Source: Archaeoglobaceae archaeon
GTDB taxonomy: Archaea > Halobacteriota > Archaeoglobi > Archaeoglobales > Archaeoglobaceae
Length of the DNA: 64,000 bases
Direction of reading: 5' to 3'
Assembly (NCBI GenBank): GCA_027036775.1
Contig: JALWDS010000018.1
Coordinates: 1-64,000 of the forward strand
Positions 6,064 to 8,674 of this stretch are shown one piece after another (position 1 is the first letter of the stretch; every line of letters starts with the position of its first letter). A program made the translations under genes and the position numbers. Under the pieces are notes generated by a model, which worked only from the letters and a program-made list of their open reading frames with translations, made no database searches and had not been told where the DNA came from.

Positions 6064-6146
6064 GGATTTTGGTGGTATTATTTAAATTTTAAAATTTTTA
6101 ATTTTTAACGAAACTTTTAACTATCCTTGAAAGTTAAATGGTTTGA

Positions 6147-6219
6147 AGCCCCGTAGGGTAGCGGTCAATCCTGCCGGCCTTTGGAGCCGGCGACCGGGGT
6201 TCGAATCCCCGCGGGGCTA
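6147..6219 (+). tRNA. tRNA-Gln (UUG)
   Basis: AGCCCCG/CGGGGCT acceptor stem, CCGGC-CTTTGGA-GCCGG anticodon arm, GGTTCGAATCC T-loop. Confidence 0.92.
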
Positions 6220-6226
6220 TTCTCGA

Positions 6227-6273
6227 ATGATGAAGGGCTAACGCTCTGATTCGTGATGAAAATACCGAACTGA
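6227..6273 (+). ncRNA. C/D-box guide sRNA candidate downstream of tRNA-Gln
   Basis: C box ATGATGA (6227-6233), 12-nt guide, D' CTGA (6246-6249), C' GTGATGA (6253-6259), 10-nt guide, D CTGA (6270-6273). Confidence 0.78.
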
Positions 6274-6310
6274 ACAGCAAGACTTATCTTTTTCGAATTT
6301 AATTTCCTTC

Positions 6311-7099
6311 ATGATCAGAGTTGCAGTAGCTGGTGCTGCGGGTAGGATGGGTAGGTTGATCGTGAAGAACGTCGTAGAGGATGAGGAGCTCGAACTCGCA
6401 CAGGCTTTCGACTTGAGGGAAGTTGGAAGGGATGCTGGAGAAGTTGCCGGAGTTGGTAAGGTAGGTGTTCCGATAACTCACGCAGATGAGATGGAGGAGA
6501 AGTTGAATGCGGACGTTCTCGTTGACTTCACGGTTGCGGAAGGAGCGGTGAAAAACATAAGAATTGCAAGCGAAAGGGGAGTTAAGCTCGTTGTCGGAAC
6601 GACGGGATTTACAGAGGAACACTGGAGTAAAATAAGAGAGTTCTGTAAAAGGGTTCCAGCGGTGATATCTCCGAACTTCAGCGTTGGTGTGAACGTGTTT
6701 TGGAAGCTTGTAGAGTTCGCCTCCAAATTCTTAGGGGATTACGACGTCGAGATAGTCGAGATACACCACAGGTTTAAGAAGGATGCTCCAAGTGGAACGG
6801 CCTTAAAGACTGCGGAGATAGTTAAGGGTGTCGTTGGAGACAGAAAGCTCGTCTTCGGTAGGGAAGGAGTCTGTCCGAGGGGAGATGAAATCGGAGTTTT
6901 CGCTGTAAGGGGAGGAGATGTTGTTGGGGAGCACACGACCTTCTTCATAGGGTTCGGGGAGAGAATGGAGTTAACCCACAGGGCTTGGAGCAGGCAAGCT
7001 TTTGCGAGCGGTGCCATTAAGGCGGTAAAGTGGATATCAAAGATCGATAAACCCGGCATATACGACATGGATCACGTGCTGGGTTTCAAGAGTCCTTAG
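6311..7099 (+). CDS. dapB: 4-hydroxy-tetrahydrodipicolinate reductase
   Basis: VAGAAGRMGR, EIVEIHHRFKKDAPSGTA motif. Confidence 0.97.
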   Translation: MIRVAVAGAAGRMGRLIVKNVVEDEELELAQAFDLREVGRDAGEVAGVGKVGVPITHADEMEEKLNADVLVDFTVAEGAVKNIRIASERGVKLVVGTTGFTEEHWSKIREFCKRVPAVISPNFSVGVNVFWKLVEFASKFLGDYDVEIVEIHHRFKKDAPSGTALKTAEIVKGVVGDRKLVFGREGVCPRGDEIGVFAVRGGDVVGEHTTFFIGFGERMELTHRAWSRQAFASGAIKAVKWISKIDKPGIYDMDHVLGFKSP

Positions 7100-7501: not shown

Positions 7502-8593
7502 ATGTTATATTTGATCCGCTATTCTGAGGTCTTTCTAAAGTCCGAACACGTCAGGAGGCGCTGGGTAAACAAGTTGGTTGAGAACATCAAGAAGGTTATA
7601 GGTGGAGGAAGGTTCAGGTTGGAGAGGGGAAGGATTTGGCTTGTTACTGATGAGAGGGTGGACGAAAAACTGAGAAAGGTTTTCGGAATATCCTCCTTTT
7701 CTCCCTGCATTCACTGCAAGCTTGACGAGTTGGAGAGTTGCGTTCTCGAGTTCTGCGAGGGAAGGTTGGATGATGTTAAGACTTTTGCGGTTAGGGTTAA
7801 GAGGGTTGGAGAGCACGAGTTCACATCCTTGGATGTTGAGAGGAGTTTGGGTTCTTTGATACTTCAAAGGTTCCCCCACCTCAAGGTGAACTTGGAAAAG
7901 CCCGAAAAGACGATCTACGTTGAGATAAGAAACGAGGATTGCTACGTGTTCGACGAGGTGATAAAGGGAGCTGGAGGAATTCCCGTGGGAGTTGAAGGGA
8001 AGGTCGTGTCTCTCATTTCTGGGGGAATAGACTCACCAGTTGCTACTTGGCTCATGATGAAGAGGGGTTGCGAAGTGATACCTTTACACATGGACGTAAG
8101 ACCCTTCACGAGCGAAAGGGCTGTTGAAAAGGTCGAGAAGATAACGGGGGTTTTGAAGGAATACAATCCAGACTTGGAGCTGATTGTGAGAGAGCACGGC
8201 AGATTTCTGAGGGACGTCAAGGAGTTGCTGAAATCGAAGAGACTCGAAAGTTACACCTGCGTGATATGCAAGAGGAGGATGCTCAGGGTTGCAGAGGAGG
8301 TTGCGAGAGATTTCAAAGCCAAAGGTGTGGTTACCGGTGATTCTCTCGGACAGGTTGCAAGCCAGACTTTGGACAACCTCTACGTCGTAAGTCAGGCTTG
8401 TAGCATACCTATATACAGACCTCTGATAGGTTTCGACAAGGTTGAGGTCGAAAACATCGCGAGGGAGATAGGGACTTACGAGTATTCGATAATACCAGCG
8501 GAATGCAAAGCTGTGCCTAAGAGACCTACAACGAAGGCAAACCTCAAAAGGGTTCTCGAGATAGAGGATGAGCTGAGGAGAAAAGGTTATTAA
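7502..8593 (+). CDS. thiI: tRNA 4-thiouridine sulfurtransferase
   Basis: THUMP region plus SGGIDSPVATWLMMKRGCEV PP-loop. Confidence 0.94.
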   Translation: MLYLIRYSEVFLKSEHVRRRWVNKLVENIKKVIGGGRFRLERGRIWLVTDERVDEKLRKVFGISSFSPCIHCKLDELESCVLEFCEGRLDDVKTFAVRVKRVGEHEFTSLDVERSLGSLILQRFPHLKVNLEKPEKTIYVEIRNEDCYVFDEVIKGAGGIPVGVEGKVVSLISGGIDSPVATWLMMKRGCEVIPLHMDVRPFTSERAVEKVEKITGVLKEYNPDLELIVREHGRFLRDVKELLKSKRLESYTCVICKRRMLRVAEEVARDFKAKGVVTGDSLGQVASQTLDNLYVVSQACSIPIYRPLIGFDKVEVENIAREIGTYEYSIIPAECKAVPKRPTTKANLKRVLEIEDELRRKGY

Positions 8594-8609: not shown

Positions 8610-8674
8610 AATTGAATGATGAATCAGGCAGGAACTGAGTGAAGATGATGAAGGCTGTACTCCCTGAAACAATT
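8610..8674 (+). ncRNA. C/D-box guide sRNA candidate (thiI-nob1 intergenic)
   Basis: C ATGATGA (8616-8622), 12-nt guide, D' CTGA (8635-8638), C' ATGATGA (8645-8651), 12-nt guide, D CTGA (8664-8667); terminal stem AATTG/CAATT. Confidence 0.88.

Follow-up and report, generated by a model that had tools for sequence, protein, structure and literature searches.

The question raised by this locus is whether the C/D-box sRNA found directly behind a tRNA gene is made as part of the tRNA transcript, and which RNA it would guide. The window analysed was a stretch of 64,000 nucleotides from an Archaeoglobaceae archaeon, in which tRNA-Gln(UUG), the sRNA and a dapB-like ORF follow each other on the same strand (Table 1). 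The ORF was named by the motifs MIRVAVAGAAGRMG and EIHHRFKKDAPSGTA, and we take it to encode dihydrodipicolinate reductase. A first-pass annotation had proposed the tRNA, the spacer and the four boxes, and every one of these positions proved exact to the base on comparison with the sequence, ARAGORN and Rfam.

Table 1. Features of the tRNA-Gln/sRNA locus (window positions 6109-7099)
Feature	Position	Strand	Evidence or remark
BRE/TATA promoter of the tRNA-Gln transcript, CGAAACTTTTAACT	6109..6122	+	38 nt 5' of the tRNA
tRNA-Gln(UUG)	6147..6219	+	ARAGORN and Rfam RF00005, 62.5 bits
Spacer TTCTCGA, 7 nt	6220..6226	+	sequence; 5 nt in G015
C/D-box sRNA	6227..6273	+	sequence; Rfam sR families below gathering score; boxes conserved in G015
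C box ATGATGA	6227-6233	+	sequence
D' guide AGGGCTAACGCT, 12 nt	6234..6245	+	complementary to tRNA-Gly(UCC) nt 39-50; N+5 target U43
D' box CTGA	6246-6249	+	sequence
D'-C' spacer TTC	6250-6252	+	sequence
C' box GTGATGA	6253-6259	+	sequence
D guide AAATACCGAA, 10 nt	6260..6269	+	without target; not conserved in G015
D box CTGA	6270-6273	+	sequence
Candidate separate dapB promoter AGCAAGACTTATCT	6276..6289	+	score 9.05; 35 nt 5' of the dapB ATG
T-run, possible end of the tRNA-sRNA transcript	6289..6293	+	sequence alone
dapB-like ORF	6311..7099	+	ORF list; neighbour kept in G015

The element has the features of its class, namely a RUGAUGA C box, CUGA D' and D boxes, a C' box, guides of 10-12 nt and a short D'-C' spacer. 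The 10-nt guide had been called atypically short, but 10-12 nt is the norm for archaeal C/D guides (PMC4644070). Several archaeal C/D families of Rfam aligned over the whole element, all of them below the gathering score; sR17 was the best (22.8 bits, E 0.0019, gathering score 36), and the others were sR12, sR2, sR5 and sR1. As the C/D families in Rfam are guide-specific, these scores exclude the families in question and not the C/D class. The probability that a random sRNA starts at most 8 nt from the 3' end of a tRNA on the same strand was about 1e-4. A gene for fibrillarin was found in the genome.

Conservation of the locus was followed in 57 genomes of the order, and in one of them, the same-genus genome G015, the best match extended across the tRNA and on into the sRNA. 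In G015, tRNA-Gln(UUG), 5 nt, C/D sRNA and dapB-like gene follow one another in this order, which is the kind of synteny that had been proposed as a check in other Archaeoglobales. All four boxes are kept in G015, the sole difference being the variable purine of C and C'. The D' guide is identical at 11 of 12 nt, with the change at the base adjoining D', and the D guide differs. No match to tRNA-Gln was obtained in a third genome of the genus (72% complete), no C/D sRNA was seen downstream in the tRNA-Gln(UUG) loci read in other genera, and at L034, where dapB is 82% identical, neither a tRNA nor an sRNA was present in the 262 nt 5' of dapB. The arrangement was found in two genomes only. C/D pattern matches in G015 (L124), G022, G023 and G038 (L125) were rejected as different sRNAs, with guides of the GGACTGACGG/GAGCTGACGG type; the best match of the L118, L119 and L124 guides was 16S 1031.

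The guides were scanned against the 16S, 23S and tRNAs of the same genome. The D' guide formed 10 consecutive Watson-Crick pairs, and a G-U pair at 39, with positions 39-50 of tRNA-Gly(UCC) (GGCGUUAGCCC), and the D' guide of G015 formed 11 Watson-Crick pairs with an identical tRNA-Gly. At least 10 pairs to any rRNA or tRNA were reached by 1.3% of shuffled D' guides, and 11 pairs by 0.4% of shuffled G015 guides. Pairing of 9 or more Watson-Crick bases with rRNA or tRNA across the N+5 position was present for the D' guide and absent for the D guide. Five bases from D', the guide pairs with U43 (numbered by hand), which sits at the upper end of the anticodon stem. We also found, in a second genus (G035-G038), a C/D sRNA with the D' guide RGGGCCAACGC, which carries a C in place of the U seen here; tRNA-Gly(UCC) of these genomes has G45 (4 of 4), compared to A45 here. 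This compensatory change, U to C in the guide and A45 to G45 in the target, supports the pairing of the D' guide with tRNA-Gly(UCC). The covariation is one event, and the shuffling statistics (1.3%) give moderate support; we regard this target as probable.

The main alternative is that the dicistron and the sRNA are real and the D' guide serves something else, be it an rRNA or some further RNA, or is an orphan or chaperone. According to the literature, roughly a quarter to a third of archaeal guides are without rRNA targets, and a partial match to 23S 373 was present as the best one in the rRNAs of the genome; however, it has a mismatch at N+6, and no unbroken match to 16S or 23S was obtained. 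Against this alternative speak the uninterrupted run of 10-11 Watson-Crick pairs with tRNA-Gly(UCC), the compensatory change in the second genus and the poor pairing of the G035-G038 guides with the 23S 373 site; we consider it rather unlikely. For the D guide, nothing above shuffles was found in the rRNA of the genome, and no target among its rRNA and tRNAs. One tRNA guide and a second guide without target is also the description given for tRNA-targeting archaeal sRNAs by Lui 2018, as cited in PMC7994747.

Taking tRNA-Gly(UCC) as the probable target, the distribution of the guide can be compared between genera. In G035-G038 the gene for this sRNA is not beside tRNA-Gln; it is arranged head to head with a further C/D sRNA gene and precedes a gene read as methionine aminopeptidase, which indicates that the guide has moved. 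No recognisable copy of the D' guide was seen in other Archaeoglobales whose tRNA-Gly is identical in sequence, and the methylation would thus not be general. In a survey of archaeal tRNAs (PMC7668247) we found no mention of position 43.

As a separate observation, the D loop of tRNA-Gly(UCC) is 2 nt longer in the genus of the window and in G035, G037 and G038 (L138, L174-L177) than in the other Archaeoglobales read. The longer loop falls in the same genera as the guide.

Transcription of the locus was studied with a promoter matrix trained on the regions upstream of 42 tRNAs in the same genome, in which the sites lie mostly 36-39 nt 5' of the tRNA. The tRNA-Gln promoter scored 13.9 (genome tRNA median 9.4, maximum 14.4), and the equivalent site in G015, at the same distance from tRNA-Gln, scored 11.4. 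The first-pass annotation had argued that there was no room for a TATA element between 6219 and 6227. This argument was incomplete, since an archaeal TATA element for the sRNA would fall inside the tRNA, and that stretch was therefore scored directly. The best score was -1.9, below every tRNA promoter of the genome, and the corresponding stretch in G015 likewise scored low. No candidate promoter for the sRNA was seen there. An sRNA with its own promoter, its TATA element inside the tRNA, would not be processed from the tRNA transcript. In a six-species study about 20% of archaeal C/D genes had an upstream TATA-like motif (PMC7994747), but with these scores in both genomes such a promoter is very improbable here. 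The site at 6276-6289 scores close to the tRNA promoter median and lies 35 nt from the ATG, which suggests that dapB is probably transcribed separately, presumably as a leaderless mRNA. With a strong promoter 5' of the tRNA, none for the sRNA and a site of its own for dapB, the sRNA is most likely the 3' part of the tRNA-Gln transcript.

It is scarcely credible that the C/D boxes arose by chance in a tRNA trailer and that no stable RNA is made from them. The fold energy is ordinary (z 0.13), a measure that says little for C/D RNAs. The strict four-box motif, present twice in the window (6227 and 8616), did not occur in any of 60 windows simulated with matching dinucleotide content, the boxes and the D' guide are kept in G015 where neighbouring bases have diverged, and guide and target change together in G035-G038.

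The match at 8616 is a second C/D sRNA of the window (ATGATGAATCAGGCAGGAACTGAGTGAAGATGATGAAGGCTGTACTCCCTGA, 8616-8667, + strand), located just past an ORF that ends at 8593. The D guide of this second sRNA matches 16S 863 (with one G-U) and 23S 1926 (9 pairs), and a homologue was found in L034 at 2511.

Elsewhere in the genome, C/D genes were sought beside the 43 tRNAs. One further tRNA of the 43, tRNA-Ser(UGA) on another contig (L173, G000:C34 near 2446-2600), has a C/D sRNA directly 3', in the order tRNA, about 3 nt, GTGATGA-TTGGAGGGGTCT-CTGA-GGA-GTGATGA-CAAGCCGCCAAT-CTGA. The D guide of this sRNA matches 23S 2050-2061 at 12 of 12 nt. In G015 (L172) the same sRNA and downstream sequence stand behind tRNA-Ser(GGA), so the locus has exchanged one serine isoacceptor for another. 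A scan of 394 genomes of the phylum gave full tRNA-C/D pairs in the window genome, G015, G019 and G064 only, a count that is a lower bound because the pattern was strict. In G019 (L171) and G064 (L211) the C/D sRNA lies 13-15 nt behind tRNA-Pro(GGG), and the two genomes belong to different families. A match behind tRNA-Cys in G200 was rejected, as the second box pair is missing and the sequence resembles the beginning of a protein-coding gene.

The dicistron that had been proposed for tRNA-Gln is supported by the promoter placement, by the gene order and tight spacing shared with a second species, and by another tRNA-sRNA pair that both genomes carry. We consider a tRNA-sRNA dicistron with a genuine C/D sRNA highly probable on these grounds. 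A single promoter 5' of tRNA-Gln(UUG) would then give a short transcript carrying the tRNA and the C/D sRNA. As in the published cases, and in keeping with tRNA 3' processing in general, RNase Z would be expected to cut after the discriminator base, at 6219/6220; this single cut would form both the 3' end of the tRNA and the 5' end of the sRNA precursor. L7Ae, Nop5 and fibrillarin would bind the sRNA, which would also be trimmed, and the D' guide would direct 2'-O-methylation of U43 in tRNA-Gly(UCC) by the N+5 rule. For the complete proposal, in which transcription of tRNA-Gln is tied to a guide for 2'-O-methylation of U43 in tRNA-Gly(UCC), we see about an even chance.

The tRNA-C/D dicistron layout is already known in a few archaea and in plants. 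The plant tRNA-snoRNA genes have a Pol III promoter inside the tRNA, whereas the promoter here is a BRE/TATA element upstream of it. In the plant genes the tRNA is followed by the C/D RNA, which is released by RNase Z (Kruszka 2003, as cited in PMC3491384). The precedents named in the first-pass annotation, plants and Nanoarchaeum equitans, are real, and further cases exist. In N. equitans, tRNA-Val(UAC) and sRNA8 are supported by RNA-seq, and RNase Z was proposed to make the sRNA 5' end (PMC3491384). That pair shares with ours a C/D sRNA directly 3' of the tRNA, but differs in the tRNA and the guides, and in resting on RNA-seq compared to sequence here. Ignicoccus hospitalis tRNA-Ser and Thermoproteus tenax tRNA-Pro are given with C/D sRNAs by Tripp 2017, as cited in PMC7994747; on that account the layout is the same, in different phyla and with different guides, and both tRNA partners recur in the window genome and its relatives. 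In Thermococcus kodakarensis, a euryarchaeal likeness, co-transcription and RNase Z release were proposed for tRNA-Arg and Tko-sR44 (PMC4247193), a pair with another tRNA and another guide. Archaeal C/D sRNAs that target tRNAs include sR50, for the pre-tRNA-Trp intron, and the Pyrobaculum single-guide sRNAs (PMC7994747). They also have one guide that fits a tRNA and another without target, but the guide described here stands behind an unrelated tRNA and is predicted to act on U43 of tRNA-Gly(UCC).

New here, and absent from the first-pass annotation, which named no target for the D' guide, are the predicted guide for a different tRNA, tRNA-Gly(UCC), together with the compensatory change, and the other tRNA-sRNA pair of this genome. 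The locus adds a clear, conserved archaeal tRNA-sRNA dicistron, accompanied by a second one on another contig. It also provides the guide with a tRNA target that is specific and testable, and that is backed by a corresponding change in a related genus. If the proposal is true, the transcript of one tRNA would supply the modification of another. The repeated capture of C/D guides behind tRNAs bears on how such guides may relocate and acquire a promoter and a processed 5' end.
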